From: Spirochaetales bacterium | Lineage (GTDB): Bacteria; Spirochaetota; Spirochaetia; JABMQR01 | DNA: 64,000 bases | Assembly: GCA_018399255.1 (NCBI GenBank) | Contig: JAGYPA010000009.1 | Location: 1 to 64,000, forward strand | Reading direction: 5' to 3' | Made by a program: the position numbers and the translations under genes | The notes under the pieces: generated by a model | What the model was told of the DNA's origin: nothing | The model's input: only the letters and a program-made list of their open reading frames with translations | Databases searched by the model: none | Shown here: in pieces, positions 7,256 to 30,863 of the stretch | Layout: each line of letters starts with the position of its first letter | Position numbering within the stretch: position 1 is the first letter of the stretch

Positions 7256-7307
7256 GTTATGTGTACATAACGGTTATGAGTACATAACGGTTATGTGTGT
7301 ACATAAC
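7256..7307. promoter_or_regulatory. Three consecutive palindromes (operator-like array)
   Basis: Three copies of GTTATG-N3/5-TACATAAC-type inverted repeats: GTTATGTGTACATAAC at 7256-7271, GTTATGAGTACATAAC at 7273-7288, and a version with two extra bases at 7290-7307. They are separated by single G residues, so the period is 17 bp. They end 69 bp upstream of the ATG at 7377. The arrangement looks like a cooperative binding site array for a dimeric regulator; the regulator is unknown. Confidence 0.5.
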
Positions 7308-7376
7308 TGATACTAGTGTATTAACGGTCGTTGATCGTTTGGCAGGTGCTAATTAATCATTTAAGGGGAGACACAC

Positions 7377-8027
7377 ATGAAGAAGAAAAATTTCATGGTT
7401 CTTATGATGGTTCTGGCCTTTCTCGTCGGGTCAGTGGGTTTGGTGATGGGAGGATTCGGCAACTGCACAGATGCAGTTGGGGTTTCTTATACATCATCCG
7501 GACAGGTTGCCTACTGCGTATGCTAAATAGTGGTCAAATAGCCGATATTATTAGTTACAATTTAGGAACCTGACAGCAGCTACTGCAGGAGCACAGGCTC
7601 AAAGTGGCGGAGCTGCGGCAGGAGAAGCTGCCAGCGGATTTCTTCGCGCATATTACTATATGGATATACTGATACATCTTATGAAATTACTATAGCTATA
7701 GCTGCAGATACAGGTGGATTCCTTGAGGCAGTTGTTGCAGTGAAGGTTCAGTAACAGATGCCGGTAATGATGATTCTGTTGTCATAACTGGTGGAGGAGG
7801 GACGCAGGAGATGCAGTACATACCGGATTAGCTACTGAATATCCTGGTAGTGGAAGTACTGTTCCAATAGGAACCACTGCAGCTGATTTTATTACTGGGA
7901 TTGATCAGCGAATACCTGGACTGGTACAGGAAATTCAGACGGTGCGCAAGTAGTTTATTATCTCGTTGCTGATCCGGAATCAACTGAATCTGTTACAGTT
8001 ACGTATACCTTACAGGCTGCAACCTGA
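7377..8027 (+). pseudogene. Small secreted, probably surface-exposed protein, frameshifted
   Basis: ATG 7377 has AAGGGGAG seven bases upstream and encodes a strong signal peptide (FMVLMMVLAFLVGSVGLVMG). The open frame ends after about 50 codons. Coding character resumes in shifted frames: AGAQAQSGGAAAGEAASG, YGYTDTSYEITIAIAADTGG, GLATEYPGSGSTVPIGTTA and VVYYLVADPESTESVTVTY, ending at TGA 8025-8027. The rebuilt product would be about 210 residues, rich in small and beta-prone residues, like a pilin-type or adhesin-type subunit. No family is recognised. The triple-palindrome array sits immediately upstream. Confidence 0.5.
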
Positions 8028-9261: not shown

Positions 9262-12200
9262 TCATGTTTGAATCGCGCCGGCGCGGGCTCTATCCCGGCA
9301 ATCTTCGGTACGGATCCAGAGCCCCTTTCCCGATGTCCTTCCCGGCAAATATCGGGCTTTCCAGGTTAGCCGACGGCGGTGAGAACGACCTCTTTGGAGT
9401 CATCTATGCCCTTGAGTTCAAATAGAGCTGGAGGGGCAATGCGGTATCAGTATACGGATCGTGCGCTTCTTTCGCTGGTGCCCTTCTCCACCAACATTAC
9501 CATCTCCACCATCTCCACCATCTCCACCAACGCGGCGCTCTCTCTGCAGCCGAGGGCCCTGTTACTATTGAACCGGTTGGAGGAGGCGGACTCGATGCTG
9601 ATCCCCGATCCATCTTGTGATGGCGGTCTTCAGCGTGACCAACAACTCATCAGTGTTCAGAACCTGGAGCCGGTCCTCGTCCTGCCGGAGGGCTGGCGAA
9701 CCACCTCTCCGTTACCCCTGGAACTGAGTCCTGAAGATACTGACATGGTCTATCTCGGTTTTATCGTACCCCGCGAAGCCCTGGCTGGAGAGTGCACCGT
9801 AGGATTCACCGCAGCTGCGGAAGCCCATACTGGAGCATCGGCCGCATCGGCAGATTCCTTACACCATTGTCGAAGCATCCCTGCCGGTAACCGTACGGGC
9901 ACCTACAGCCTCTCCCGCAGCTGCTAACCCTTCCATCTCTGGTAATTCTGCCAGCGAAACCTACAGCGCCGGATTCGTCCTGACCAACGGCAGCAATGCC
10001 TGCCAGCGTCAGCCTGAAATAACCGGCACCCGGATATCCCCTCGAATTTGAAAGCACCTGCATAACCCTCGGCCCCGGAGAGACCCGCGAAATCACCATA
10101 CAGGCAAAAACCCCTCGATACCTTGCCCAAGATTATCAGCCATGAAATAACCATAAGTGCCCTTATGGAGGAAGAGGGGTTGGGGGCGGGCAGAAAGACT
10201 TACGGAGAGCCCGTGAAAGCCCGGGGCATCGAGCTCGGTAAGCGTCATCCCAGTAAAACCCGGCGGCGACCCCGGCACCGGTATCCGTAACTCCTCGTGG
10301 AACTTCTCTATTACTCATCAAAAGAAGAAGAACAGCCGCTGCAGAACAGCCTGAAACTTAGTGCAGCGGGTATATTGATGATACCGGACGCCATCGCCTC
10401 AGCTTCAGCATTGCCCCCGCCGGCCTTCCCCGACCCCGAATGGACTATTGCCGATACCGTATATTCACTCAACTACACTTATAAAGACAATTCCCTTGGA
10501 ACTTAGCGGCGGCACCGGGTCGTATGCCTATCCCGGCCTTGTGCAGCAAAGCACTTCCGGATGGGGAGCGCGCGGCACCATAGACCTCGAAAACGGAAAT
10601 AGGCAGCTATGCCGTATTCAGCACCGCCGAAGAAGTTCCCGACTACGGCATAGGCGGCCGAATAAAACGCGAGTTCGGCGAAGTGAATACCATCGAATTA
10701 CGCTTTGTGATGCCGGAAACGAGCTTTTCTAAGGCCTGGCGGGGGTGAAAAGCTTTCTGAGACCCTATGATGCCGCTAAATATCAGCCTGGAAGCCGCCC
10801 TCGGCTTCAGCGGACCGGAAGATTATGCCTACAGCCTTAACGCTGAGGAACGTAGCGAAGAAGAATACTCCTATACCTTCAGCATCCGGCTGGCTGGCCC
10901 CGACTTCAGCGGACCTCGCCGTCCCCGGCACCTACTGCTACGCAGCCAGCGGCACTCTCTCATCCTTTCCCGGCATATTGCTCTCCGGCAGCATAAAAGA
11001 GGAAAACCAACTTGCGCTTGATGCCGGCCAGAACACCGCGCTCCTTAACCGCACCACCAGCCTGCGGACCAGCTTCAGCCTCGGCGACGGCATCTCCTTC
11101 AAAATCAGCCAGCAGAACTCCGTCAGCATAACCTGCTTGCCGTACGACTGCTGACCGAGCAGAAGGAGGAGACTGCCATAAGCACGGGCTATTCGACGAC
11201 CTCCGTCCGACGGTTCAGCCAATCTTCCCGGTCCTGACTACCAATAATCGCATTGCGGCAATCAGGTATTTGCCGTCGACGCAGTATATCGACCCGATGA
11301 CAAATTGAACGTAACCGCAAAAATCAGCTTTGATGCCGGCAGCAGTCCCGGCATAACTGATGCCCTGATCGGCGGCAGTCTTGGCCTGTCGTACCAATGG
11401 GGCCGCGATACCGACTTGAGCGCCAGCCTGCGCACCTCGGTCCAGCCGTTCCGGGAAAATAGCGGCAGCAGCACAGTAACCGCTGGACTGCGCCACAACT
11501 CGGATACGCTCGGGAACTTCTCCCTGAACGGCAGCTGGACAACGTATCAGAATACCAACGAGGGGAGTTTTCGGGATAACCGCTTCCTACGCACGTCCCT
11601 TCCGCATCCCGACCGTTCTCAAATCCGATGTCGGCACGGTAAGCGGCTTTGTCTGCCACGTTGAAACCGCCGGAGAACGGCTGCCGGGAGTTATCATCAG
11701 CATAGACGAACAGACCACGATTACCGACAGTGACGGAAATTTCCATTTTCCCGCCGTTATCGCCGATCTCTACTATCTTCAGGTAAATGCCGCCGAGCTT
11801 GGAGAGAACTTATCCTTGAGGGTACGCTGCCGTAAGGAGGGAGGTAGCCGGAAGAGTGAAATTGTCCTCGAAATACCGCTTACCCGGCCGGCACACATTG
11901 AAGGCCGCCTGATCCGTATGGAAATAGACCCATCGGCAAGTATGTTTTCTCGCCGCAGTGTATCAGGAAGCCGGCGGTTTCGGTGGAATTCTGGTGGAAA
12001 TATCCGAGATTACGGAGAACGCCGTGAAGTTACCCGCTCCGACGGAACCTTCAGCTTCAAGGGGCTGGTACCGGGAATCTGGACGATAACCGTGTATGAG
12101 CGGGACTGCCGACAACCCATAATCTGGAAGAGACTATTTACACGTTGGAGCTGGCACCCGGAGAGACGGAACTGTCAAGCGATAGAGGTGCTGCCGATTC

Positions 12201-12393
12201 AGCGGGCGGTCAGGTTTTGCAGGAGGAGACATTGAACTGTAGCTGCAGAAGTGGAGACAAAAGATACGGACCCTGCCAGGGTGAGCGGCCTCGGCAAACT
12301 CAGGCTCTGCCCCAGATCCAGCCCCAGATCCAGCCCCAGATCCAGCCCCAGATTCAGCCCCAGATTCAGCCCCAGATTCAGGCTCTGCCGTAA
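9262..12393 (+). pseudogene. Large outer-membrane/surface protein gene, broken by many frameshifts
   Basis: Coding character runs continuously on the plus strand but changes frame a dozen or more times. In order I see: GLYPGNLRYGSRA and FPANIGLSRLADGGENDLFG (9270-9400); a beta-rich stretch with LPEGWRTTSPLPLELSPED and MVYLGFIVPREALAGE, like an NPCBM/COG1470-type domain (9680-9790); repeated beta-strand segments typical of a barrel (LGLSYQWGRDTDLSASLRT and TAGLRHNSDTLGNFSLNGSW, 11380-11540); then two carboxypeptidase-regulatory-like domains (GVIISIDEQTTITDSDGNF, and SDGTFSFKGLVPGIWTITVY near 12050). The frame of the last domain continues through PQIQ repeats to TAA 12391-12393. Whole, it would be about 1,000 residues. 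An usher-like or adhesin-translocating role is only a guess from the small secreted neighbours. Confidence 0.55.
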
Positions 12394-13108
12394 AATCAGA
12401 CTCTGCCTCACGGGATTTTTTCTGCTGGCAGGCTTTCTGCTTCCCGCCGGCTTGTGCGCCCAGAGCGAATACGTTGATATCAACCAGAACGGCATCGGTG
12501 CCGGCATCGTCATCGACCTTGGAGGCGGATCTTTCAGCGGGGCCTCCCTCGCTGCCGCCTATTCAAGCAACGGCATTCTCGATATCGGCATTGACCTGGG
12601 AATCGTCTCCCCGCGCCTGCCCGATATCACCTTTCCGGAATATCAGGGGTCGATCCGGTTCGGTTTCACCATCTTGAAGCAGGACCGCCTGATGCCGATA
12701 TCGCTCCTGTTTACCGGTGCGCTGCGGGCTTCGATCGCGTTGGGAAATGAACCCGGAGATGGGGGAGAGGATCTGCTGATGAGCGGGACGGGCCTGGGGC
12801 TCGGCATGGATCTTTTCCGGTTCTGGTTTCTCCGGCCCCGCTTTTACGGTCGTCTGGGAATGTGGATTGGCCACGTGTCGGATACGGTCATTACCGAACT
12901 GGAATCGGGTGCCCAGACAGCAAGCTATCCATCGAGCACCACGGTACGGCAGTTTTCCATCGGTCTGATGGCCGGTATTTCCTGGCGGCCGAATACGTCC
13001 AACCGGGGGGCAGCTATTTCCGGCGATCTTAGGGTCGGAATAGATGAGAAGGGAACCTTTCATCTGCTGCCGGCAATTACGGTAACCGTCGTGAGTGAAG
13101 AAATCTGA
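12251..13108 (+). CDS. Outer-membrane beta-barrel-like protein, start uncertain
   Basis: The frame is open from GTG 12251. The first 45 residues lie over the 12-bp repeat array and look artificial (SPRS/SPRF repeats). A signal peptide appears only afterwards (GFFLLAGFLLPAGLCAQSEY), and the mature part begins at about residue 67. It has alternating hydrophobic strands (IGAGIVIDLGGGSFSGASLA, YGRLGMWIGHVSD, QFSIGLMAGISWRPN) and ends in LLPAITVTVVSEEI, so a small 8-10-stranded barrel of about 215 residues is plausible. No ATG, GTG or TTG with a ribosome binding site stands just before the signal peptide, so either the start is the poor GTG or an indel hides the true one. Confidence 0.6.
   Translation: METKDTDPARVSGLGKLRLCPRSSPRSSPRSSPRFSPRFSPRFRLCRKIRLCLTGFFLLAGFLLPAGLCAQSEYVDINQNGIGAGIVIDLGGGSFSGASLAAAYSSNGILDIGIDLGIVSPRLPDITFPEYQGSIRFGFTILKQDRLMPISLLFTGALRASIALGNEPGDGGEDLLMSGTGLGLGMDLFRFWFLRPRFYGRLGMWIGHVSDTVITELESGAQTASYPSSTTVRQFSIGLMAGISWRPNTSNRGAAISGDLRVGIDEKGTFHLLPAITVTVVSEEI
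12310..12381 (+). repeat. 12-bp tandem repeat, six units
   Basis: Six adjacent 12-bp units, three of CCCCAGATCCAG followed by three of CCCCAGATTCAG. In the frame of the upstream surface protein they encode (PQIQ)n; in the frame of the downstream barrel they encode SPRS/SPRF. The copy number is a multiple of three bases, so changes would not shift either frame. Confidence 0.95.
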
Positions 13109-13132
13109 GCATGAATCAAGCAGGATACGAGC

Positions 13133-14077
13133 ATGAAAATACCAGTCCATTTGAAGCATAAGCCGGTCATTGTATCGGAAGCATATGACACCATAGGCGG
13201 CCGCAAATCGGTTCGAGCTGCGGCCAAAGGGCTTTCGCTCGGCATCGCAGCTCTGCTGTTCCTGCTGCTCATTTCCGGGACCATGCTTATTGCGGCCTCA
13301 GTCCGGCTTCAGAACGTTACGGACGGACTTGCGGTTCTTGATAAGAAGCTCCTCGATACGCTTGCCGCGAATGCTTCAGCAGACGCTTACAAAGCAGACG
13401 CTTACAAAGCAGATTTCATGACCGATTCTACAGATGATCCCGGGTCTGATGCTTCCTCTGCAGCAGGTTCCGGAGAACAGGAAGTGCTCATTGGTACCGT
13501 TGATTCAGCTCGGCTCGATTATCTGGAAGGTCAGATTCTGCAGCTTGCTTCTGCTCAGGAAGCTTTGGAAGCCGAGGGGCTGAAAGCAGTTGCTTCTCTT
13601 AAGGAGCAGCTTACGGCACAGCAGGAGCAGCTGGAAATCCGGCAGAATGAGTTGGATACCTTGCACGGAGGACTGAAGGCTCTTCAAGACCGTCTCGAAG
13701 CCAGTGCCCGCAAGTATGACACCCTGATCAACGACCTCTACGATCAGAATGAAACCCTCAAGGGAGACATTGCCGCCGTCGCCAGACAGAACGCCGCCCT
13801 TCAGGCAGAAATAGAAAAAATGAAGGCACAGAACCTCACCGTGAGTCAGGATCTGGAAAAACTCCGAAGAGCCGTTTTGACATTCCATAACATGGGATTG
13901 TTTGGTACAATACGTACAATAAATCGGGAAGGCATACTGCGCATTCTCGATTTGAAAGAAGAAAAACCCTATATGACCCAGGAAGAAGCCGCGGAAATAC
14001 TCAAACGGGAAGGATTTACCATCAGTACGTATGAGATTTTTCTCATTTATGGAGCATATTTTAATGAATTCAAGTAA
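13133..14077 (+). CDS. Single-pass membrane protein with long periplasmic coiled coil
   Basis: 314 residues. A 33-residue basic N-terminus is followed by one transmembrane helix at about residues 34-56 (LSLGIAALLFLLLISGTMLI). A low-complexity Asp/Ala/Ser linker contains a duplicated ADAYK motif (15-bp DNA repeat at 13379-13408). Residues about 120-255 are strongly coiled coil (heptad-rich Leu/Ala/Gln/Glu). The C-terminal 60 residues form a small helical domain (FHNMGLFGTIRTINREGILR, PYMTQEEAAEILKREGFTIS), which might be a DNA-binding-like or protein-binding fold. The family is not recognised. It lies between a beta-barrel and a hybrid kinase, 24 and 14 bases away, so it is likely part of the same unit. 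Confidence 0.75.
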   Translation: MKIPVHLKHKPVIVSEAYDTIGGRKSVRAAAKGLSLGIAALLFLLLISGTMLIAASVRLQNVTDGLAVLDKKLLDTLAANASADAYKADAYKADFMTDSTDDPGSDASSAAGSGEQEVLIGTVDSARLDYLEGQILQLASAQEALEAEGLKAVASLKEQLTAQQEQLEIRQNELDTLHGGLKALQDRLEASARKYDTLINDLYDQNETLKGDIAAVARQNAALQAEIEKMKAQNLTVSQDLEKLRRAVLTFHNMGLFGTIRTINREGILRILDLKEEKPYMTQEEAAEILKREGFTISTYEIFLIYGAYFNEFK

Positions 14078-14091
14078 CAAGGCAGCAGGTA

Positions 14092-16650
14092 GTGCAAGAT
14101 TTTCCGCATAACAGGCGCGAGGGAAAAGAACCCGAAGGCCCAGGATCAATAACATTTCCTCTCAAGCTGCTGGAACAACGGAAACGGCGACCAACCGACA
14201 ACACGGGAAATCTGGAACAGCTTCTGCTTACCTTTGCAGACGAGCTCTCTACCATAGAAAATTTGCCCGAAAACATCGCGCTTGACCGCTGTCTGGAAGC
14301 TCTGGGCGAATATTGCGGTGCAGATCTCACCACCATTTACCTTTATGGAGAGAAAGGATGCACGTTTTTTCTGAGTCGTGCATGGCCAGTCCGTCAGATC
14401 CTGGAAAAAAATGGTGAAAAACCCCATGAGGTGATACTGGAACAGTATCCAGCCATGAACGAAGCCATTGCCCGCAGAGAAATCTTTACCATACCCGATG
14501 CAAACAAACTGCCGGAATCCTGGGCCCCGGAAAAAAAGCTGCTCCTGGATTTTAATGCTCAATCACTCCATGCCCTTCCGATACTAGAACAAAAGAAACT
14601 GTTCGGCTATCTGGTCTTTACCCGGCGCCGGGCTGCAGCGCAGGAGGAGATGGGCCGAACGGAAATCCTGCTCTTTTTTGCCAACATTATCGGACAGTTC
14701 CTTGCACGACAGGAGACCGATGATGTACGGAAGCAGGCGGTGGACCAGGCAGAACACCTGACCGCAGAACTCAAGAAAGCCAACCAGGGACTCAGCAGCT
14801 TTCTGGCAAAAATCAGTCATGAGATCCGTACCGCCCTCAACTCCATTATCGGCCTTTCCAAGCTGCTCCAGAATTCGGAACTTGACCTCAGGCAGCACCG
14901 GTTTGCCAGGAATATTGAATCCGGCAGCAAACTGCTCCTTCAACTTTCCCAGGACATCCTGGATTTCTCACGACTTAAGGAAGACCAGCTGGAGATACGG
15001 ACCAGCCTTTTTGTGGTAGAAGAAATGGTCGGCAGCGCCGTAACCCCGTTTATCATGCAGGCCGAAGAGAAAGGACTTTCTATTGTCAGGGATATGAGCC
15101 CCAATGTTCCGGCAGAACTGATGGGAGACTCAGCCCGCATAATCCAGATTCTAGCCAATTTTATCAACAATGCGGTAAAGTATTCCGACAGCGGAATCAT
15201 AACAGTAAGGACAAGAATGGTAAAAAGCACCGCCCAGCAGCTGTGGGTCGCCTTTTCTGTAGAAGATACCGGGCGCGGTGTAGCAGAAGAGAACATCGGT
15301 AAAATTTTCGAGCCCTTTTATCAGGGCGGCGATGCGAGCAGCAGCTTCACAGGAGGGACTGGACTGGGATTGGCCATCTGCCGGCAGCTCAGCCTTAAAA
15401 TGGGGGGGAGCATCGTGGTTGAGAGTGAGCTGGGAAGGGGCAGCATCTTTACCATGAACCTTCCCTTTCCCAGAAATCACCACGAAGACATATCCATCGA
15501 TCTGCCGCTGGAATATCAACCTGCTAATAGACTGCCGGTCTCCCGACAGGAAGAAATAAAACCGGCACCCCGACCAGACGGGCAGAAGCTGGCAGATTTT
15601 GACGATGGTGCCCGGAAAGTACTGGTGGTCGAAGATATTATCATAAATCAGCATATTGTTATCCAATACCTTACAGACATCGGCTTAGCCGCCGATACCG
15701 CAGCATCTGGGGAAAAAGCCCTGGAAATGGTTACGCAGAATACCTATGATCTTATCCTGATGGACGTAAGCCTGCCGGGCATTGACGGGATTGAAACAAC
15801 CCGCAGCATCCGGGAAATGGATGAACCGCCGGTGCGAAATATTCCCATCATCGCCATGACCGCCCATGCTATCGAGGGTTTTCGTGAACAGTTCAACGAA
15901 GCCGGCATGAACGCCTTTATCAGAAAACCGATTGATATCGAACAGTTTTATCGCACGATCGCCGAATTCATTGACTTGCCGGCAACGGAAAAGCATACCC
16001 GGGAACAGCCGCAGAAGCGGTTGCAGAAGCAGCTCCAGCCGTTCCCCTTTGTTATAGACAGCATTGATACCAAAATAGGATTTGCCCGTCTGAACTGGGA
16101 TCTGGAACTCTATCGAAAAGTGATTCGGGAATTTTATCAGGGAAGCCGTTCGGTTGCCAGTCAGCTCAGTCTCAACTGGAAATATCATCAGCAGGGGGCG
16201 ATGATCAGGATCGTGCACTCCCAGAAATCAATTGCCGGCAGCATAGGCGCACTTGAGCTGAGCGACAAAGCAAAAGACCTCGAATTGCTCCTTATGGAGC
16301 GGGGAACGGAGAGTGAGAGGAAAATCAATCAGGCCCTTGCCGATTTCTTTTCCCTCCAGAGGCAGATCTGTTCCGGAATAGAGGAGTCGGGAGTGCTTTC
16401 TGCCGTCCAGGAAGATGACCAGCCCAAGCAAAACGTGTCCAGGGAAGAGCTTTCCGCCCTCCTGCAGGAGCTGATCGGCAACCTGCAGATTAGTGACTTC
16501 AATGCCATTGAACAGCTGCGGAGTCAGCTCAATCAGACTGAAGTCTCCCCGGCGGCTTCCCTGATCATAGAAAAACTTAACCGCGAGATAGAGAGCTACA
16601 CCTACGACAAGGCCGCCGGATATGCCGAAGAGCTGCTGAAGCTTATATAG
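14092..16650 (+). CDS. Hybrid histidine kinase: GAF-HisKA-HATPase-receiver-Hpt
   Basis: 852 residues from GTG 14092; the ATG at 14064 is closed by a stop. There is no transmembrane segment. A GAF-type domain spans about residues 55-200. A coiled linker leads to HisKA, with SHEIRT placing the phospho-histidine at His243. The HATPase domain has an intact N-box (NFINNAVKYS), DTGRGV and GGTGLGLAICRQ. The receiver starts near residue 508 with Asp558 in LILMDVSLPG and Lys in FIRKPID. The C-terminal domain aligns with Hpt, with His709 in VHSQKSIAGSIGA, where the usual HxLKG motif is altered. All parts of a phosphorelay are in one chain. The output regulator is not adjacent. Confidence 0.9.
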   Translation: MQDFPHNRREGKEPEGPGSITFPLKLLEQRKRRPTDNTGNLEQLLLTFADELSTIENLPENIALDRCLEALGEYCGADLTTIYLYGEKGCTFFLSRAWPVRQILEKNGEKPHEVILEQYPAMNEAIARREIFTIPDANKLPESWAPEKKLLLDFNAQSLHALPILEQKKLFGYLVFTRRRAAAQEEMGRTEILLFFANIIGQFLARQETDDVRKQAVDQAEHLTAELKKANQGLSSFLAKISHEIRTALNSIIGLSKLLQNSELDLRQHRFARNIESGSKLLLQLSQDILDFSRLKEDQLEIRTSLFVVEEMVGSAVTPFIMQAEEKGLSIVRDMSPNVPAELMGDSARIIQILANFINNAVKYSDSGIITVRTRMVKSTAQQLWVAFSVEDTGRGVAEENIGKIFEPFYQGGDASSSFTGGTGLGLAICRQLSLKMGGSIVVESELGRGSIFTMNLPFPRNHHEDISIDLPLEYQPANRLPVSRQEEIKPAPRPDGQKLADFDDGARKVLVVEDIIINQHIVIQYLTDIGLAADTAASGEKALEMVTQNTYDLILMDVSLPGIDGIETTRSIREMDEPPVRNIPIIAMTAHAIEGFREQFNEAGMNAFIRKPIDIEQFYRTIAEFIDLPATEKHTREQPQKRLQKQLQPFPFVIDSIDTKIGFARLNWDLELYRKVIREFYQGSRSVASQLSLNWKYHQQGAMIRIVHSQKSIAGSIGALELSDKAKDLELLLMERGTESERKINQALADFFSLQRQICSGIEESGVLSAVQEDDQPKQNVSREELSALLQELIGNLQISDFNAIEQLRSQLNQTEVSPAASLIIEKLNREIESYTYDKAAGYAEELLKLI

Positions 16651-21507: not shown

Positions 21508-21539
21508 GCTGCTATTCCCGATTAACCGGGAACAGCAGC
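21508..21539. terminator. Hairpin at the convergent end of the ABC and binding-protein operons
   Basis: GCTGCT-A-TTCCC at 21508-21519 pairs with GGGAA-C-AGCAGC at 21528-21539 around an 8-base loop. It covers the stop of the minus-strand binding protein and lies 30 bases after the ABC stop. With no long T tract on either side, it is a possible bidirectional terminator or mRNA-end hairpin. Confidence 0.45.
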
Positions 21540-22504
21540 TTCTGGTTTTCGGAAGTATACATGGTCTCCTTGGTGATGATTTCGGCCCCCGTATCAACCA
21601 TTTTCGGAATCGGCTTCCCCTCGATCAGATCAACGGCATAGGCTACCCCCAGATAGCCCATATTGAAGGGCTTCTGCACAATAATTGCCTGGATGATCTC
21701 CTGCTCGAGACTCTTGATAATAGGCGGTGAGTTGTCTATGCCGATGAGCACCGGACGTTTATCTGCCGGCAGTTCTGCCAGATACCCTGCACTGCCGGCA
21801 AGGGACGGCTCATTCAAGGCAATTATCGCCTCGATATCGGGGTAGGCGGTAAGAATTTCTTCAGCCAACTTCCTGGCTGCATCCGCATTTCCGCCCGAAT
21901 ACCAGGACCCGACAATATCGGCATAGCCGGCAAGACTCTCCCGGGTTCCCTTTTCCCGGTCTATAGCCGTAGAGCTTTCGATAACGTAACTGAGAATCGC
22001 CACCGAAGAACCCCGCTCAATATAGTCCTGGGCCAGCAGCCCTGCCTTGAAGCCAGCCGAATAGTTGTCCGTACCGATCCTGCTGGCCGGAGCGTCGCTG
22101 TTCACGAAGGAATCGATGGTAACAAGAAGAATCCCGTTATCGGTAATCTCTTCTGCGATGGGAACCAGCCGGGTAAAATCAGCAGCCGCAAGCACAATAG
22201 CGTCCGGCTTCCGTTCAATTGCCTCACGGATCAGCTTGATCTGGCGGGTAATCTCCGTCTCCGACTGCGGACCGCTTATCGTCAGATCCACCTGCATATC
22301 CTCTGCCGCAGTCTCAAGCCCCTGCCGGACAACACCCCAGAACGGAATACCCACGTAGTCCGTTGACTTGAGAATAACCTCGATCCGATAGGCGTCCCGT
22401 TCGTCATTGCGGAAAGGACCGTAATTAAGGAACGAGAAAAGCAGGACTGAGGTAAGAACGGCAATAGCCGCAAGTATGGAAAAGGCCTGGCCTTTGAATT
22501 TCAT
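21512..22504 (-). CDS. RbsB-like sugar-binding protein, membrane-anchored (paralogue 1)
   Basis: 330 residues from ATG 22504, which has a CGGAGC ribosome binding site; the longer reading has none. The N-terminus carries a hydrophobic helix (FSILAAIAVLTSVLLFSFL) with no lipobox cysteine, so it is probably an uncleaved membrane anchor. The rest is a type I periplasmic binding fold (RbsB/Peripla_BP_4): PFWGVVRQGLETAA, PDAIVLAAADFTRL, GTDNYSAGFKAG, and VQKPFNMGYLGVAYAVDLIEG near the end. It is a close paralogue of the next upstream gene; both end in the same SENQKLLFPVNRE tail. No permease or ATPase gene accompanies the pair. Confidence 0.88.
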   Translation of the reverse strand: MKFKGQAFSILAAIAVLTSVLLFSFLNYGPFRNDERDAYRIEVILKSTDYVGIPFWGVVRQGLETAAEDMQVDLTISGPQSETEITRQIKLIREAIERKPDAIVLAAADFTRLVPIAEEITDNGILLVTIDSFVNSDAPASRIGTDNYSAGFKAGLLAQDYIERGSSVAILSYVIESSTAIDREKGTRESLAGYADIVGSWYSGGNADAARKLAEEILTAYPDIEAIIALNEPSLAGSAGYLAELPADKRPVLIGIDNSPPIIKSLEQEIIQAIIVQKPFNMGYLGVAYAVDLIEGKPIPKMVDTGAEIITKETMYTSENQKLLFPVNRE

Positions 22505-22525
22505 AGAACAGCTCCGTAATTGCAA

Positions 22526-23533
22526 TTATTCTCTGTTAACCGGGAACAGCAGCTTCTGGTTTTCCGAAGTGTACATCGTATCGCGGGTTATGCAAACCGA
22601 TCCCGTATCGATTACCGCATCAACAGGAGTTCCCCGAATGGAGTCAACGGCACTCTTAACACCCAGATACCCCATATTGAACGGCTTCTGCACAATTACT
22701 GCCTGAATTACGCCGTTCTCGAGAAACTGAATAATCGGCGGAGAATTATCGAAGCCTACCAGGGTAACCGAACCGCTGCGGCCGGCCGCCTCGATTGCCC
22801 GGGCAGCCCCCACCGTAGCCTGCTCATTCAAGGCAACAAATCCCGTAACCTCGGGCATCTCAAGGAGAATCTGCCGTACCTGCTCCTCGGCAACCGTAAT
22901 ATCGGCATTGCAGTACCAGGTTCCGGCAACCGTATGCTTTCCGATAAGATAATCCCGGACCCCTTCCTCCCGATCAATCTGCGAAGAAGTATCGCGGAGA
23001 TAGCTGATTATGGCAACCCCGGTCGCCCCCGCCGCAGACATTTCTTCAGGCTGCAGGAAATCCTGCAGCGATTCCCCGGCCTTATACCCGGCTGCATGAT
23101 TGTCGGTGCCGATCCTGCTGAGCGGAATATCACTGTCGATAAAAGAATCGATCGTGATCAGCGGGATCCCGGCCTTCTGGATCTCGTCTGCAATCGGGGC
23201 AAGCCGCTTGAAGTCGGCCGCCGCGACCACAATCGCCTGCGGCCGTCGCGCAAGAGCCTTGCGGATCATCTCGATCTGAAGATCTATCTGAGTCTCCGAA
23301 GGCGGACCCTGAATGGAAACGGCAGCCTGAAAATCCACAGCCGCCGTCTCCACCCCCTGCCTCACCACATCCCAGAAGGGGAAATTCTCGTAGTCGGAAG
23401 ACTTTATCACCACTTCGACAGTGAGGGGCTTGGCATCCGCAGTCTCCAGGGGATTTCGGTTCGTATAGATAACCAGGAAAAGGGCAGCCAAGGCGCTGAA
23501 CGCCAACAGAAAACCCATTATCTTTTTGTTCAT
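22526..23533 (-). CDS. RbsB-like sugar-binding protein, membrane-anchored (paralogue 2)
   Basis: 335 residues. A single N-terminal hydrophobic helix (IMGFLLAFSALAALFLVIYT) without a lipobox is followed by a complete type I sugar-binding fold: PFWDVVRQGVETAA, PQAIVVAAADFKRL, GTDNHAAGYKAG, VGFDNSPPIIQFLENG and IVQKPFNMGYLGVKSAVDSI. Its ATG overlaps the stop of the YesM-type kinase (ATGA), so it is co-translated with the kinase. The gene 21 bases downstream is its paralogue. The arrangement favours a sensory rather than transport role: a binding protein held at the outer face of the inner membrane next to the kinase's extracellular domain. Confidence 0.88.
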   Translation of the reverse strand: MNKKIMGFLLAFSALAALFLVIYTNRNPLETADAKPLTVEVVIKSSDYENFPFWDVVRQGVETAAVDFQAAVSIQGPPSETQIDLQIEMIRKALARRPQAIVVAAADFKRLAPIADEIQKAGIPLITIDSFIDSDIPLSRIGTDNHAAGYKAGESLQDFLQPEEMSAAGATGVAIISYLRDTSSQIDREEGVRDYLIGKHTVAGTWYCNADITVAEEQVRQILLEMPEVTGFVALNEQATVGAARAIEAAGRSGSVTLVGFDNSPPIIQFLENGVIQAVIVQKPFNMGYLGVKSAVDSIRGTPVDAVIDTGSVCITRDTMYTSENQKLLFPVNRE

Positions 23534-25302
23534 TGCTGCTCCTGTTCGATAGCCGGCAGCGTAATCGTAAAAATGGTGCCCTTGCCGACAACACTCTTAT
23601 AGACAAGCCCGTACTGGTCGCCGAAAAAAAGCTTAATCCGTTCCTGCACATTGCGCAGCCCGATCCCGCTTCCTGTCTTCAAGTCGGATCGATTGCGCAT
23701 CAGCTGCTCAAAAGACTCCTCGCTGATCCCGATCCCGTTGTCCTCAACCTCGAAAACCAGACGCCGGTCTGCCGACAGCCTTCCCCTGATCTTGATAATA
23801 CCTCCAGCCTCCTTCTCCTTCAAGCCATGATAGATGGAATTTTCCACCAGCGGCTGAATAAGCAGCTTCAGCGTCCGGAATGAATAAATATCGGGACTGA
23901 TATCGAGAGAATAATCCAGCTTATCCTTGTACCGCATTTTCTGAATAACCAGATAGCTGCGGATATGCTCGATCATACTGCGCACGCTGACAATCTCCGA
24001 ACCCTTGCTTATACCGAGACGGAAAAACTCCGCCAGGGCAGTGGTCATCTCCACCACCTCCTGATTCATCTCACATTCAGCCATCCAGATGATGGAATCG
24101 AGCGTATTGTAGAGAAAATGGGGATTAATCTGAGCCTGCAGAGCCTTAAGCTCATTCTTGCGCTTGATATCCTGCTCCCGCTCGTTCTGCTCGAGCAGAT
24201 CCCTGATCTTCATAATGGCAATCTTGCAGTCCTGAGCCAGCTCCCGCACTTCATTATTGCTGCTCACCTTGATATCGATGTCGAAATTGCCCCGTTCCAC
24301 CTCGCGCATCGACTCACGCAGCTGCTCTATAGGACGGGAAATACGGCTGGAGAGAATAATCGAGAGAAGAATGAGCAGAGAGAAACCCAGCAGAGCCAGC
24401 AGAATATAGATAGTGCTCAGCTGCGTCTTGTAGGAGTTGATCTCATCCAGAAACGAAACCCCCACCAGCGTCCAACCCGTACTCTCCGAGGTATTGACCG
24501 TATAGAGAATATCCTCCTCATCGATCACCACCGCCAGGTTGCCGTTCTTCAGCTCAAGAACCTCATCGATATACTCACTTTTCAGATTGCTGTAGATAAG
24601 CTGCTGACGGGGATGATAGACAAGATCGCCGTTCTCGTTGACAAGAAACACATACCCCCGCTTTCCCAGCTCAACCTCCATGCAGATCTCCTCGATCAGC
24701 TCGTAGTTGAGATCAACCATCAGCATCCCGGCAAACGCCTCCTCGCGGCGGCTGAGAACACTTCGGCCCAGCGATATCACCCATGGGTACTCATCCTTGA
24801 TCAAATTCTGCACATGCCCGGGAGACAGATAAATACTCTGCGGCTGCGCCTTCAGCTGCATGAAACCCTCGATACCCGAAATATCGACAGCAGGATTAAT
24901 CTGCTTCTCGGGAGAACTGGTAATCGCATCCCCATTCTCCAGAATCAAGGTAATCGCGCTGATATCATTGCGGATAGTTCGCAGCGAGTTGAAAAAAACC
25001 CCCACGTCCCCCCTCAGCCTGTTCGCCTCCGGACTCTGAACATAGGCAGCCGGGATATCGAGCAGCTCCTGCACCGGACCGCTCTCAGCCGCCACATTGG
25101 CAATATCGATCATATAGGCAATATAGGTGTCAATGACATTATTAAGCTGAGTTATCAGCTGACTGGTCGACTTTTCGGTATTTTCCCGGATAACATTGCT
25201 GAAGAGATAGAACGACATCGTCCCGAGAAGCAGAACGGTAGCCAGCAGCAGCAGCGTGAACGTGAGAATCATACTGTTCTGAATCGTTTTCAGCCGCCTC
25301 AT
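23530..25302 (-). CDS. YesM-type membrane sensor histidine kinase
   Basis: About 590 residues. TM1 lies at about residues 12-36, an extracellular dCache-like region at about 40-295, TM2 at about 300-322, then a HAMP domain, a His_kinase (LytS/YesM) domain with AQINPHFLYNTLD (phospho-histidine near residue 395), and an HATPase domain with PLVENSIYHGL, DNGIGI and GSGIGLRNVQERI. All catalytic motifs are present. The start is GTG 25305 or ATG 25302, overlapping the stop of the response regulator. Such kinases usually sense carbohydrates and act on an AraC-type regulator. Here the operon continues into two sugar-binding proteins. Confidence 0.92.
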   Translation of the reverse strand: MRRLKTIQNSMILTFTLLLLATVLLLGTMSFYLFSNVIRENTEKSTSQLITQLNNVIDTYIAYMIDIANVAAESGPVQELLDIPAAYVQSPEANRLRGDVGVFFNSLRTIRNDISAITLILENGDAITSSPEKQINPAVDISGIEGFMQLKAQPQSIYLSPGHVQNLIKDEYPWVISLGRSVLSRREEAFAGMLMVDLNYELIEEICMEVELGKRGYVFLVNENGDLVYHPRQQLIYSNLKSEYIDEVLELKNGNLAVVIDEEDILYTVNTSESTGWTLVGVSFLDEINSYKTQLSTIYILLALLGFSLLILLSIILSSRISRPIEQLRESMREVERGNFDIDIKVSSNNEVRELAQDCKIAIMKIRDLLEQNEREQDIKRKNELKALQAQINPHFLYNTLDSIIWMAECEMNQEVVEMTTALAEFFRLGISKGSEIVSVRSMIEHIRSYLVIQKMRYKDKLDYSLDISPDIYSFRTLKLLIQPLVENSIYHGLKEKEAGGIIKIRGRLSADRRLVFEVEDNGIGISEESFEQLMRNRSDLKTGSGIGLRNVQERIKLFFGDQYGLVYKSVVGKGTIFTITLPAIEQEQQ

Positions 25303-26936
25303 CACCTTCCAGCTTCTATAGACTGCCGATACTCGGTCAGCGTCATCCCGGTAACCTTGCGGAAGATGGTGGCAAAGTACCCGGGATCAGTATAGCCCAC
25401 CTGCTCTGCAATCTCATAGTTCTTCAAGTCGGTGGAATTGGCCAGCTCCTTGGCCTTATCGATACGGGTGACGGCAAGAAATTCAAGAACCGTCATATTG
25501 GTATGCTTCTTGAAAATCCTGCTCAGGTAGCCGGCGCTGATAGCCAGCTGATCACTCAGCTGCTCAGTGGACAGACTGCTCAGACTATAGTTGGCAGCAA
25601 TGTAGTCCATCGCCTCATAGACCTTCTTTTCCGAAAAAGCCTGCCGCTTCAGGCGGAGCTTATCCGAGGCGAGTCTGCAGAAATTGAAGATCCAGGCCTC
25701 TGCTTCCTCCAGGGTTTTCATATTCTTCAGGACAAGGATCGGATCACTCGTGGAACTGATATCCAGATCCGAACAGGTAATATCGAGCTCCTCGAGAGCG
25801 TTGAGGATGATTATGAAGTATTTCTGAATCTCAAGCTCCGAACGGTAGACCGATATGCTGCTGGCTTTGAGGTGAGAAAAAAACTGGACCGCCTGGGCCT
25901 CGATCTCGGTCGCCGAACCGGTCTTTACCGCATGCACAATAAGGCGGGCATCGTCGGAAAGCACCGGAAGCGGCTGCCCCTCCGCCTTTTGGCGATTATC
26001 GTAATAAATGGCGCTGTTTTTGCCCTGCATAAACCGGTAGTCGACAGCCAGCTCGGCCTCCCTGAACGACCGGTAGACATCCTCGAGAGAGAGCTTGATG
26101 CCCCCGATCCCCAGGGTCACCGTCGAATAAGGAATATCTTTAGCACTCTGATAAAAACGGCGGACAAACTCCTTGGTATGATCGTATACCAGATGCTCGG
26201 TTTTACCGGTGATAATAACGGCAACCTGGCGTCCAGGCCGCTGGAAAATGAGGGAGCCTTCACCACCCTGCGGGGCAGCCTCGAGGCAGGCATTCTGCAC
26301 AGCCAGCAGGAAGATGGAAAAGGAAATGTACGGGTTGCTGCGAATAGCATCGGGATCGTCCGGATCAATCAGAATTGCCCGGGCACAGCCGGATGGAAGC
26401 GGCACACCGATATCTTTCTCGTACGCCTGAAAATCATCGGGACCCGGCTTCTCGGTAACGAGCCGGTTTAGCAGACGTTCACGGATCAGCTCGCGGCTCT
26501 GCTCAGCCTGACGGGTCAGCAGTTCGACAGATTTCCGGAAAGACGATTCGGTATCGAGATGATCCTTCAGCCTGATGAGCAGATCGCTTATTTTCTTTAC
26601 ATTGACAGGCTTGAGAATATAATCAAACACCTTGAAAGAGAGAGCCTTCTGGGCATATTCAAATTCGTCATACCCGCTCAGAATAACCAGCGTTGTCGCC
26701 GGATAATTCTCGGCGACAAAGGCGCACACCTCAAGCCCGTTTACCCCGGGCATGTTAATATCAGTGAGCACGACATCCGGCTGAAGGACTTTAACCGCCT
26801 CGATAGCATCGGTACCATTGCGGCAGGGATCCAGAAAGGTAAAACCATAATCCGCCCAGGCAACCCGCTCGGAAAAACCGCGCCGGATAATTTCCTCATC
26901 ATCGACCATCAGAAAGGTGTACATCGTATGTTCCAT
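25302..26936 (-). CDS. YesN-type response regulator with AraC DNA-binding domain
   Basis: About 544 residues from ATG 26936 (ATG 26924 is an alternative). An N-terminal receiver domain shows MVDDEE, the acceptor Asp in VVLTDINMPG and Lys in YILKPVN. A long middle region (about residues 130-410) is typical of YesN proteins. The C-terminal 100 residues hold two AraC helix-turn-helix motifs (YSLSSLSTEQLSDQLAISAG and LKNYEIAEQVGYTDPGYFAT). It is first in the operon, followed without gaps by the kinase and the two binding proteins. The likely target is its own operon or a distant carbohydrate locus; no site was identified. Confidence 0.92.
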   Translation of the reverse strand: MEHTMYTFLMVDDEEIIRRGFSERVAWADYGFTFLDPCRNGTDAIEAVKVLQPDVVLTDINMPGVNGLEVCAFVAENYPATTLVILSGYDEFEYAQKALSFKVFDYILKPVNVKKISDLLIRLKDHLDTESSFRKSVELLTRQAEQSRELIRERLLNRLVTEKPGPDDFQAYEKDIGVPLPSGCARAILIDPDDPDAIRSNPYISFSIFLLAVQNACLEAAPQGGEGSLIFQRPGRQVAVIITGKTEHLVYDHTKEFVRRFYQSAKDIPYSTVTLGIGGIKLSLEDVYRSFREAELAVDYRFMQGKNSAIYYDNRQKAEGQPLPVLSDDARLIVHAVKTGSATEIEAQAVQFFSHLKASSISVYRSELEIQKYFIIILNALEELDITCSDLDISSTSDPILVLKNMKTLEEAEAWIFNFCRLASDKLRLKRQAFSEKKVYEAMDYIAANYSLSSLSTEQLSDQLAISAGYLSRIFKKHTNMTVLEFLAVTRIDKAKELANSTDLKNYEIAEQVGYTDPGYFATIFRKVTGMTLTEYRQSIEAGR

Positions 26937-26998
26937 CAACCCATCATACCCTGCCGACCGCAGTTCGGCAACCAAAAAGGGACAGCCAAAAAAGTGTC

Positions 26999-27063
26999 TG
27001 ACACCGTTTTCCTCAAAAAAACGGTGTCAAATTGCGGAAAACCGTGTCCGGAAAACGGTGTCA
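26999..27063. repeat. Repeated palindromic element around AAAACGGTGTCA
   Basis: TGACACCGTTTT at 26999-27010 and AAAACGGTGTCA at 27018-27029 form a perfect 12-bp stem with a 7-base loop. A third copy, AAAACGGTGTCA, lies at 27052-27063 and overlaps the stop codon of the U32 peptidase gene, and a related AAAACCGTGTCC lies between. It resembles a dispersed REP-like element rather than a simple terminator. Confidence 0.6.
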
Positions 27064-28294
27064 GATACTTTTTCTAATAATATACCCGGGCTTAGCCGGA
27101 ACCGACGGCAGTATATAGCACACTTTCCCGTGATCCGCTTTCTGCACCTCATTCAGGTGCTCATCAAACAGCCGGAACTCTCTGTCTTCAAGAAAAAGAA
27201 TATCGGGACCGATAAACTCGATCGCCGTCCCGGCAGAAATCTGGTTTTTGCAGTCCAGCCGGAACATCCCGGCGTGATCTTCAACCGGCGCCCCTTCAAC
27301 CGGTTCCCCCACTGAGCCGAGAAAGAGATGGGTTCTCATGTAGCTCTTTTCAGTGGGCACCTGAATATCCTCCCTGCCGAAAAAGAAACCGGTCGAGAAC
27401 TCACGGTGACTGACTGAGAACAGCTCTTCCCGATACGAAGCCCAGTGCCCAACCGGTTCGCCGGCAGCAAGGGCATCGAGCGCTTTCCTGTAAGCCCGGG
27501 TAACCACCGCCGCATAGTAGATGGACTTCATTCGCCCCTCAATCTTGAGCGAATCCACCCCGGCATCCTGCAGAGCTGCCAGATGGTCAATCATGCAGAG
27601 ATCCTTCGATGAGAGAATCGTCGTAAAATTATCCCCCTCGATTATAGGAAACAGCTCTCCCGGGCGCTTCTCTTCCTCGAGAGCCAACGTCCCCGGCAGC
27701 TCGGTAACCCGATACTTCCAGCGGCAGGTGTGCGAACAATCCCCCTTGTTAGCACTGCGGTCAATGGCCAGAAAACTGCTGAGAAAACAGCGTCCCGAAT
27801 AGGCCATGCACATAGCCCCATGAACAAAAGCCTCAATCTCCAGATCGGGATACCGGACCTTGATCTCGCCCATCTCCTCCAGACTCGTCTCCGCCCGGAA
27901 TAATCCGGGAAAAACCCAGGTCCCGATAGATCCCGGCCGCCTCGACATTGGTGCAGTTGGCCTGAGTGCTCAATGCAGCTCAACCCGGGGAAAGTAGGTG
28001 CGCAGCAGGGAAGCAGCCCCAGATCACTGATGATAAACGCATCAAAAGGGTAGCGGGAAAGATAGTCGATCTGCTCCTCGAGCTTTCTCCAGCTCAGCAT
28101 TCCCGAAGAAAATATTGAGCGCACCGAAAGCTTGCGCTCCGCGATCTCGGCAACCTCCTGCCACTCATCGCGGCGGAAATTATCCGCCCGTGCCCGCAAC
28201 GAAAAATCCCGAATTCCAATGTAGGCTGCATCAGCCCCGTAGGCATACGCATAGCGCAGCTTTCAGATTGCCCGCGAGGGGCCAGCAGCTCCAT
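27061..28294 (-). pseudogene. Peptidase U32 (collagenase-like/RlhA-type), frameshifted
   Basis: ATG 28294 opens MELLAPRG, the usual U32 beginning, then frame is lost. Coding resumes as ADAAYIGIRDFSLRARADNF, breaks again around 27950-28020, and continues cleanly to the stop at 27061-27063. The conserved U32 block is present: EAFVHGAMCMAYSGRC, then a second pair of cysteines in NKGDCSHTCRWKY (an iron-sulphur-binding set in RlhA/TrhP-type proteins). Members act in rRNA or tRNA hydroxylation or as peptidases. At least three indels are needed to restore it; those near 28270 look like loss of bases from short homopolymers. Residues look otherwise intact, so the damage is recent or technical. Confidence 0.7.
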
Positions 28295-28295: not shown

Positions 28296-30719
28296 TCAGC
28301 CGTCCTTTTTCCCGGAAAGACCGTCGGAAAGACCTTCGGAAAGGCCGTCGGAAAGACCGCCGGAAAGGCTGCCGGAAAGCCAAACGCCAGATCCAGCACC
28401 TGTTCCATAGTGTCTACCGGATGGGAATTCGAGACCCGATCGAATATGCTCGGGAATCTCCTCCAGGTCACGCTCATTATGCTTTGGAATAATGATAGTC
28501 TTGATCCGGTTGCGCCGCGCAGCAATAACCTTCTCCTTCAGCCCGCCGATCGGCATCACCTTACCCGCTAGAGAAAGCTCCCCGGTCATAGCCAGAGCCG
28601 GCTTAATCACGCGGTTTGAGGCAAGGGAAAAGAGCGAACAGGCCATCGTAATGCCCGCCGAAGGACCATCCTTCGGTGTAGCTCCTTCTGGAATATGAAG
28701 ATGAATCGCGTTGGTCTCGAAATACGTCTTATCGATACCATACTTTTTGGCAATATGACGCACATAGGTAAAGGCTATAGTAGCCGATTCCTTCATCACA
28801 TCCCCCATCTGCCCCGTCAGCTTGATCTCTCCCTTACCCGGAACATTCAGCGCCTCGATAATAAGCGTATCCCCGCCGAAATTGGTCCAGGCGAGACCGA
28901 TCGACATGCCGGGCTTGACCGCCTTCTTAACCTCATCCTCCCTGAATATCGGCTTTCCGAGATACTTCTGCAGGCGCTCATAGGTGATAGTAACCGGAAG
29001 GGTAATGGTCTCCGATACAATTTCCATCGCCAGCTTGCGGTGAATTTTGTTCAAAGCCTTCTCATAGTTGCGCATGCCGGCCTCCCGCGCATACTCATCA
29101 GCTATGGAGATAAGGGATTTCGCCGGATACTTGACCTGACTTTTCTCGATGCCGTTGCGATCGAGACTTTTTGGTATCAGATATTTCTTGGCTATAGCCA
29201 CCTTTTCCTGAGCGATATACCCTGACAGCCTGATAACCTCCATCCGGTCGAGCAGCGGTCGGGGGATAGTATCGAGCGTGTTGGCCGTCACGATAAAGAG
29301 CACCTGCGATATATCGAAGGGAATATCGAGGTAGTGGTCCCTGAAGCTGATGTTCTGCTCGGGATCGAGCGCCTCGAGCAGGGCTGAGGAGGGATCTCCC
29401 TGAAACGATGCTCCCATCTTGTCGATCTCGTCGATCATGAACACCGGATTTTTCGATTTGACAATTTTCATACCCTGGATAATTTTTCCGGGCATAGCCC
29501 CCACGTAGGTTCTCCGATGACCCTTTATCTCGGCCTCATCCCGCATTCCTCCGACCGAAAACCTGAAGAACTCCTTGCCCATCGACTTTGCAATGGATAT
29601 GCCGATAGATGTCTTGCCGACACCGGGGGGACCGACGAGACAGATAATCGAGCCCTTGGTATCCTTTTTCAGCTTCCGAACCGATAAATATTCCAAAATT
29701 CTGTCCTTGACATCCTGCAGGCCGTAGTGATCACGATCCAGAACTTTGCGGGCTTTTTTGATGTCCAGGTTTTTCTGCTTAGGTTCCTTCCAGGGAAGGG
29801 ATGCAATGGTATCGAGATAGGTGCGGGTTACCGAGTATTCGGCCGAGTTCGGATCGAGAAACTGCAGTTTTTCCAACTCCCGTTCAGTCTGCTCGCGGGC
29901 CTCGTCGTTGAGCGGCAGCTTGTTGAAAAGCTCCTTGAAGCGATTGAACTCGCTGGTCTTCGGATCGTTCGTCATGCCGAGTTCCTGCTGAATCGCCCGC
30001 AGCTCCTCCCGCAGAAAGTAGTCGCGCTGGTTTTTTTCGATCTTCTGGTTAATCCGGTCCTGAATCTTCTTCTGGATTTTCATCAGCTCCTGCTCTTTCT
30101 TGATGAAAACCAATACCTTTTCCATACGGTCGCGGACATCGAGGGTTTCGAGAATATCCTGCTGTTCGCCGCGATCGAGATTCATGATTGAGGTGATAAA
30201 ATCGGCAATCTTGCCGGGCTGGTCGATATTGACCATGTTCAGCCGCATTTCTTCGGTAAACAGCGGGTTGCCCTTCGATAGCTGCTTCATTTCCATTAAG
30301 AGCGAGCGGGTGAGGGCGCGGACCTCGATACTGTTCTCGTTCTCGCTTTCCAGATATTCTACGGCAGCAGTGAGCGGCTTGGGGTCGGAAGTGAATTTCT
30401 TCACCCGAAAGCGCTTCTGGGTTGATATAAATATATTGATGCCGCCGTCCGGCAGGTTGATTTTCTTCACTATTTTGGCGGCGGTTCCCACTTTGTTGAG
30501 GTTGGCCGGCTCATATTCATTTTCAGCCTCCTCACGTGAGAGAAGCAGGCCGATCATATTGTCCTGCTGCATGCTTTTTTCGATAACGGCAATATCTTCC
30601 TCCGATTCTATCAGCAGGGGGGTAAAGATCCCGGGAAAAATAGGATTGCCGGTCAGCGGCAGCACAAGCAGCCGGTTGGGCAGCAGCTGATCAATAGGTA
30701 ATATTCCACTCTCAGACAT
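28296..30719 (-). CDS. lon: ATP-dependent Lon protease, C-terminus frameshifted
   Basis: About 807 residues from ATG 30719, with GGAGG just upstream. The domains are normal: N-terminal substrate-binding domain (LPLTGNPIFPGIFTPL onward), coiled-coil region, AAA+ module with Walker A GPPGVGKTS near residue 365 and Walker B VFMIDEIDKM, and a protease domain with catalytic Ser near 687 (KDGPSAG) and Lys near 730 (GGLKEKV). After HIRSGLEF the open frame diverges into a Gly/Ser repeat tail. A single extra C at 28423-28425 explains this: removing it gives HPVDTMEQVLDLAFG, the expected Lon ending. The protein is cytoplasmic and degrades misfolded proteins; the core should be active whichever tail is real. 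Confidence 0.93.
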   Translation of the reverse strand: MSESGILPIDQLLPNRLLVLPLTGNPIFPGIFTPLLIESEEDIAVIEKSMQQDNMIGLLLSREEAENEYEPANLNKVGTAAKIVKKINLPDGGINIFISTQKRFRVKKFTSDPKPLTAAVEYLESENENSIEVRALTRSLLMEMKQLSKGNPLFTEEMRLNMVNIDQPGKIADFITSIMNLDRGEQQDILETLDVRDRMEKVLVFIKKEQELMKIQKKIQDRINQKIEKNQRDYFLREELRAIQQELGMTNDPKTSEFNRFKELFNKLPLNDEAREQTERELEKLQFLDPNSAEYSVTRTYLDTIASLPWKEPKQKNLDIKKARKVLDRDHYGLQDVKDRILEYLSVRKLKKDTKGSIICLVGPPGVGKTSIGISIAKSMGKEFFRFSVGGMRDEAEIKGHRRTYVGAMPGKIIQGMKIVKSKNPVFMIDEIDKMGASFQGDPSSALLEALDPEQNISFRDHYLDIPFDISQVLFIVTANTLDTIPRPLLDRMEVIRLSGYIAQEKVAIAKKYLIPKSLDRNGIEKSQVKYPAKSLISIADEYAREAGMRNYEKALNKIHRKLAMEIVSETITLPVTITYERLQKYLGKPIFREDEVKKAVKPGMSIGLAWTNFGGDTLIIEALNVPGKGEIKLTGQMGDVMKESATIAFTYVRHIAKKYGIDKTYFETNAIHLHIPEGATPKDGPSAGITMACSLFSLASNRVIKPALAMTGELSLAGKVMPIGGLKEKVIAARRNRIKTIIIPKHNERDLEEIPEHIRSGLEFPSGRHYGTGAGSGVWLSGSLSGGLSDGLSEGLSDGLSGKKDG
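28313..28379 (-). repeat. 12-bp tandem repeat at the 3' end of lon
   Basis: Five and a half copies of a 12-bp unit (CTTTCCGRHGGY-like on the minus strand). In the frame that carries the conserved Lon C-terminus the units encode Phe-Pro-x-x; in the frame actually open they encode LS(G/D/E)G. Confidence 0.9.
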
Positions 30720-30863
30720 TAGATCCTCCATCATATGTTAGCAGCAGGGTTACCGGGATGCAGGCATAAGGGCAAAAAAAACCCGCCTGGCATGAAGCGT
30801 TACTTTTTCCGGTTTCCTGTGAATAGTAATAATGTAATCAAACTTTATTCAGGCGTGAAGTGA

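Follow-up and report, generated by a model that had tools for sequence, protein, structure and literature searches.

The 64-kb window analysed here (64,000 nt of a Spirochaetales genome) carries a four-gene operon that we read as a three-component sugar-sensing cassette, in which two sugar-binding proteins (SBPs), SBPa and SBPb, inform a YesM-type histidine kinase, the likeliest target found is an rbsA-rbsC-SBP operon on another contig (C214), and the second binding protein is a duplicate. We give this reading as a whole a probability of about 0.8. How a binding protein and a kinase together sense sugar is understood for a few Firmicutes.

In the proposed mechanism, uncleaved N-terminal helices would tether SBPa and SBPb to the outside of the inner membrane, where each would close on a pyranose sugar. 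Once closed and loaded, the protein would bind the dCache domain of the kinase, probably helped by a conserved C-terminal LLFP tail. The kinase would phosphorylate the YesN-type regulator, which would switch on a sugar-uptake operon in trans, the C214 operon being the best candidate. The second SBP would have arisen by tandem duplication and would most likely serve the same kinase, adding another affinity or a sugar slightly different from the first.

Organization of the operon

The original prediction described four minus-strand genes in the order regulator, kinase, binding protein and binding-protein paralogue. All four are present in the open reading frame list, and Pfam finds the claimed domains in them (Table 1). 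The overlaps that it claimed between the genes are there for regulator/kinase and kinase/SBPa, at 4 nt each, the regulator starting at ATG 26936. They do not extend to SBPa/SBPb: the start of SBPb is most likely ATG 22504, which has GGAG upstream, rather than TTG 22525, and this start leaves a gap of 21 nt, so that only two of the three junctions overlap. Plasmid records matched only about 1% of the operon.

Ahead of the operon is a promoter-like TTGCCG-17-TATGAT (26971-26943) and a REP-like repeat, parts of which gave 53 matches in the same genome, the query itself counted. Inside the repeat, a terminator-like stem with a T-run (27031-26997) could end transcription arriving from upstream, and the repeat is possibly a REP/RAYT-type element serving as a terminator. 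Two observations concern neighbouring genes on the minus strand. A Peptidase U32 gene just upstream (27061-28199) is broken over at least two reading frames and is either a pseudogene or an assembly error, and the Lon protease encoded at 28296-30734 has an unusual low-complexity C-terminal extension (GLSGSLSGGLSDGLSEGLSDGLSGKKDG).

Table 1 Features of the sensor operon and its promoter region, in window coordinates
Feature	Position	Strand	Basis
Operon (regulator, kinase, SBPa, SBPb)	26936-21512	minus	Four adjacent genes, ORF list
YesN-type response regulator: receiver, GGDEF_2-like middle, AraC-type HTH	25302..26936	minus	ORFs, Pfam, regulator tree
YesM-type sensor histidine kinase, GTG start 25305	23530..25305	minus	Pfam, kinase tree
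Kinase dCache_1, extracellular, residues 38-282; proposed docking target of the SBPs	24460..25194	minus	Pfam, AlphaFold, Foldseek
SBPa, predicted membrane-anchored sugar-binding protein, sensor type	22526..23533	minus	Peripla_BP_4, AlphaFold model, Foldseek
SBPa N-terminal anchor helix, residues 3-25, no lipobox	23459..23527	minus	Sequence, DSSP of model
SBPa C-terminal tail TMYTSENQKLLFPVNRE	22529..22579	minus	LLFP-type tail counts
SBPb, second sensor-type SBP, tandem paralogue of SBPa, ATG 22504	21512..22504	minus	Pfam, tree
SBPb N-terminal hydrophobic anchor, about residues 7-27, no lipobox	22424..22486	minus	Sequence
SBPb C-terminal tail, same signature as SBPa	21515..21565	minus	Sequence comparison
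REP-like dispersed palindromic repeat (TGACACCGTTTT...AAAACGGTGTCAGACAC), operon promoter region	26955..27064	minus	53 own-genome matches

SBPa and SBPb resemble sensor rather than transport binding proteins

Both SBPs match Pfam Peripla_BP_4 (E = 1e-50 and 7e-48), and in NCBIfam both lie near several CUT2 monosaccharide SBPs, far under every equivalog cut-off. In the AlphaFold model of SBPa (pLDDT 93.8), a linker joins the N-terminal helix to a domain of two lobes, and there is also a C-terminal helix (residues 323-329); Foldseek matches the model to sugar-binding proteins including GanP, 3BRS, AraP and XylFII. As originally predicted, each protein has an N-terminal hydrophobic segment, modelled as the helix at residues 3-25 in SBPa, and neither has a lipobox cysteine; nor does either sequence have an A-x-A cleavage site at the normal distance from the hydrophobic segment. 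The N-terminal helices are predicted to be uncleaved membrane anchors.

We compared 94 sensor SBPs with 86 transport SBPs. Most of the sensor SBPs have an N-terminal hydrophobic helix and no lipobox; a loose lipobox pattern occurs in 6 of the 94, compared with 42 of the 86 transport SBPs. Those transport SBPs from Spirochaetia that were inspected carry signal peptides of the classical kind. At 37 positions the two groups are separated, and the sensor state is kept at 28 of these in SBPa and 26 in SBPb, as it is at 24-29 in the clade relatives checked.

An LLFP-type C-terminal tail ([YN]Q.LLFP) is found in 88 of the 94 sensor SBPs and in only one of the 86 transport SBPs. The original prediction had noted the tail shared by SBPa and SBPb; we rejected it as a private signature of the pair, since it is common to the whole sensor family. 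SBPa and SBPb are 50% identical overall; identity reaches 94% in the final 18 residues, and is 51% across the lobes and 22% in the anchor and linker. Gene conversion behind the identical tails was considered and is not demonstrated (codon identity 11/16, permutation p = 0.07), nor is it needed, since purifying selection on a family motif suffices.

Sugar-pocket positions were mapped from E. coli RbsB and are given in RbsB numbering. SBPa and SBPb share F15, W16, D89, R141, N190, D215 and Q235 with each other and with essentially all sensor and transport SBPs, and each of the two would close on a pyranose sugar. Position 13 is a histidine in 85 of the 86 transport SBPs; sensors are mostly hydrophobic here (F in SBPa, I in SBPb). 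The sugar O4 is bonded by a histidine in XylFII, where CbpA has a phenylalanine instead (PMC9601137). If the XylFII histidine corresponds to RbsB position 13, sensor and transport SBPs may differ in affinity or ligand.

The sensor cassette is conserved across phyla

A search of 98 relatives gave a match to the SBP pair in 33. In most loci with clear orthologues the order is regulator, kinase, sensor SBP, RbsA, RbsC and transport SBP. A scan of GTDB species genomes gave 80 loci, mostly in Paenibacillus, Cohnella and Spirochaetia, with one in Chloroflexota and a few in Clostridia, and the kinase adjoins the sensor SBP in 77 of these 80 named-genome loci. An RbsA-type ATPase lies within 9 kb in 68 of the 77 (41 downstream, 25 upstream, 2 both), generally with its own transport SBP. 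The nine loci lacking RbsA comprise four with a contig edge or a split ATPase and five, all from Paenibacillus, with none in the stretch read. The regulator-kinase-SBP cassette occurs repeatedly in Paenibacillaceae, Clostridia, Chloroflexota and Spirochaetia, in most cases next to a CUT2 sugar transporter with an SBP of its own. In one otherwise standard cassette (L084, genome G007, 6867-7866) the sensor SBP is split by a frameshift into two overlapping ORFs of 115 and 239 aa.

Quick trees of the SBP, the kinase and the regulator, in which several rows have long branches, place the window proteins in the same small, mixed subclade, with values of 97 (SBP), 100 (kinase, 7 rows) and 99 (regulator, 6 rows). 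The subclade includes L068, L078, L079, L081, L099 and L169 in the SBP and kinase trees, and the same loci except L099 in the regulator tree. The associated transporters differ in kind, with an MglB-type SBP in L078, L079, L080 and L169 and an allose/ribose-type SBP in L099. Given the same subclade in three trees and the differing transporters, we conclude that the sensor SBP follows the kinase and not the transporter.

An extracytoplasmic SBP is encoded, and conserved, together with a membrane kinase and a YesN-type regulator, as in a three-component sensor, and it is distinct from the transport SBP found by the ATPase and permease in orthologous loci and on C214. The relay originally proposed is supported in outline, as is its assignment of the binding proteins to the kinase rather than to a transporter: orthologues adjoin the same kinase subfamily across phyla, mostly have a predicted uncleaved anchor, and neighbour transporters that have their own SBP. 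A transporter elsewhere that depends on SBPa and SBPb, or orthologues with cleaved signals confined to transport operons, had been named as findings that would speak against it; the C214 transporter has its own SBP, and we found no cleaved-signal orthologues in transport-only operons.

An orphan transporter operon is a candidate target

The original prediction called the operon one without a transporter. Within the 64-kb window this is correct: there is no match to a BPD_transp_2 permease, of which 54 matches occur elsewhere in the genome, and the locus is thus not a CUT2 ABC operon, with permease and ATPase beside the SBP. It does not hold for the genome, because contig C214 carries an rbsA-rbsC-SBP operon orthologous to the transporter usually linked to the cassette in Spirochaetia. 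Scored against a cassette-linked Spirochaetia SBP, the C214 SBP reaches 604 bits; it shares 78% identity with one such SBP and sits within the clade that they form (value 100). No sensor cassette lies beside the C214 operon. We conclude that the transporter is lacking only locally.

In cassette-linked Spirochaetia loci, the gap between the sensor SBP and rbsA contains a strongly conserved block whose two half-sites are spaced by about 21 bp; a -10-like TGATAAT usually comes after it. This operator-like double site (ATTTTnAACnTT...AATnTTCnATTT, 21-bp spacing) precedes rbsA in L059-L077 and in Paenibacillus loci, and in 78 of 87 loci from different phyla a looser double site ahead of the transporter exceeds the threshold of a model, which was itself trained on these loci. 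On C214, a diverged double site of the same design is found 67 bp before rbsA, the first gene, at about 13273-13330 of the contig. With a Spirochaetia-trained model this site beats all 500 shuffles of its upstream region, and it is the best in the 361 kb of own-genome loci scanned, narrowly (1.5 bits, next -0.07); most close relatives score above 27 bits. With the cross-phylum model it ranks only about sixth. Given these low scores and this rank, the site is not significant genome-wide. Uniqueness of the C214 repeat in the whole genome was rejected as independent evidence, since the pattern had been written from that site. The C214 operon is a plausible candidate target of the window regulator.

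The alternative that survives best is one in which the relay works as proposed and the regulator acts elsewhere, on its own operon or on an unrecognised sugar operon; we consider this only a little less probable than even odds. The weakness of the C214 site speaks for it, as do the subclade relatives, which pair with MglB-type transporters, together with an mglB-like operon in broken frames on contig C113. C214 is nevertheless the only orphan orthologue of the cassette-linked transporter that we found, and its double site has the right spacing and is in the right place. The usual cassette of the C214 transporter belongs to a sensor clade other than that of the window, and about 16 other YesM-type kinases in the window genome, which is 90.5% complete, could control C214. 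Comparison of the HTH helices of the regulator with those of canonical cassettes does not decide the target.

The C113 operon was tried as a partner and rejected on account of its weak match and broken reading frames. At 10888-14691 (L181, genome G000), MglB-like and RbsA-like genes in broken frames lie beside an intact permease, and the same contig has a second broken RbsC/RbsA set at 4725-7644.

The second binding protein is a lineage-specific duplicate

SBPa and SBPb are sisters in the SBP tree (value 98), and we conclude from this position that their tandem duplication is lineage-specific. A search for the same arrangement in Spirochaetota, as the original prediction had proposed, recovered the regulator-kinase-SBP order repeatedly, but the tandem SBP pair only in the window and in genome G019 (locus L083, 6813-8806), where a transporter is present. 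The G019 pair belongs to another clade (value 100), so its duplication was independent of the window's. No tandem sensor SBPs occur in the 80 loci of the GTDB scan, and 393 Spirochaetota genomes searched at a strict cut-off yielded no tandem case beyond the window and G019.

In another explanation, only one paralogue signals and the other, decaying or a decoy, would titrate sugar or compete for the kinase. In favour of this, the branch of SBPb in the SBP tree is the longer one (0.72, compared with 0.54 for SBPa); both proteins, however, have intact frames and keep the pocket core, the tail and the sensor-specific positions, and we regard this explanation as unlikely. We hold an equally low expectation that a single kinase dimer is read by a mixed SBPa and SBPb pair, which would integrate two affinities or two related sugars. 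If true, a histidine kinase would here have a heteromeric module for ligand input, one that arose by duplication on at least two independent occasions in Spirochaetia. More generally, duplicated sensors with a single kinase make it directly testable whether one or two SBPs serve each receptor.

A possible protein input to the kinase

By Pfam, the kinase comprises dCache_1 (residues 38-282), HAMP, His_kinase and HATPase_c, and the regulator a receiver, a GGDEF_2-like domain and an AraC HTH. The PF06580 His_kinase domain and the receiver-AraC HTH architecture make the two a YesM/YesN two-component pair. Both look catalytically intact from their motifs, with an NPHFLYN H-box, a DNGIGI G-box and a DINMPG receiver. 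AlphaFold models kinase residues 1-326, as a single chain, with a mean pLDDT of 93.6.

Direct binding of amino acids or organic acids is common among dCache domains, and those that bind amino acids have a motif with a conserved arginine. The nearest folds to the kinase sensor part in Foldseek are tandem-Cache sensor domains, and these neighbours are direct small-molecule sensors, which would fit a kinase that senses its ligand alone, with the SBPs as modulators or passengers; similarly, CuaSR lacking CuaD still responds weakly (PMC10384115). Yet the motif arginine, placed by the general motif rather than by a reference alignment, is not kept in this kinase family, being mostly Q and, in the window kinase, I; the WY that comes after it is gone from the window kinase as well. 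The missing arginine fits a kinase informed by a protein. The SBP is moreover retained in the cassette as faithfully as the kinase, and we consider direct sensing improbable. Least probable, by a slight degree, is that both proteins are ordinary transport SBPs for a CUT2 permease and ATPase elsewhere, their place beside the kinase reflecting only co-regulation: the fold and pocket core are common to transport SBPs and the genome has many CUT2 permeases, but the predicted anchors, the missing lipobox, the sensor-specific tail, the separate SBPs of the transporters at orthologous loci and on C214, and an SBP tree that follows the kinase all argue for sensors.

Comparison with known systems

Adjacent genes are no proof of a link between an SBP and a kinase: three P. 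aeruginosa SBPs whose genes lie close to those of the kinases AgtS and AruS did not interact with the sensor domains that were tested (PMC11113362). Elsewhere such a link is documented or suspected. CuaD binds the sensor domain of CuaS in a two-hybrid assay, whereas the domain by itself bound no sugar among those tried; the sensing and transport SBPs of the CuaDSR system are separate (PMC10384115). As cited in the same paper, XylFII and LytS form a 2:2 complex, and a Geobacillus carbohydrate system has one SBP for sensing and one for uptake. In a recent survey of Parageobacillus, an SBP that is not a lipoprotein is noted next to YesM-YesN and named as a possible third component (PMC13068155).

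The same cassette, a diagnostic C-terminal tail and a candidate operator are kept from Paenibacillus to Spirochaetia, extending this kind of sensing to a much larger set of bacteria. The tail offers a practical means of telling sensor from transport SBPs, and the window, where the sensor cassette is split from the transporter, is a possible case of control in trans.

The closest relatives are the orthologous cassettes of Paenibacillus, Cohnella, Leptolinea and Spirochaetia, which share the gene order, tail and pocket, with about 37-51% SBP identity; they differ in having a single sensor SBP (except G019) and, in most, a CUT2 transporter alongside. The xylose sensor XylFII-LytS-YesN of Clostridium beijerinckii (5XSJ) likewise combines a sensing SBP of the PF13407 fold with a LytS/YesM-type kinase, a YesN-type regulator and a separate transport SBP. 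XylFII, however, is about 24% identical to the window SBP and is the single sensing SBP of its system. The LytSN chain is not among the PDB sequence matches to the dCache profile of the window kinase, and since the input domain is dCache_1, the window system falls outside the XylFII-LytS family. GanP and AraP (6GQ0, 6SW4), which we take to be the sensing SBPs of Geobacillus stearothermophilus, agree with the window SBPs in fold and pocket class, and GanP (glucose-galactose) ranks with the top hits by both structure and sequence; these systems differ in having one sensing SBP, with 22-26% identity. The cellobiose system CuaDSR of Ruminiclostridium cellulolyticum also uses a second SBP for sensing, a YesN/AraC-type regulator and a HAMP kinase with a large extracellular part, but CuaD is a single-copy, 410-residue lipoprotein for a disaccharide, and the sensor part of CuaS has no predicted domain. 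We conclude that the mechanism is already known in kind from XylFII-LytS, GanP, AraP and CuaDSR, and that the window operon is a variant of it with a duplicated sensor and a separated transporter.
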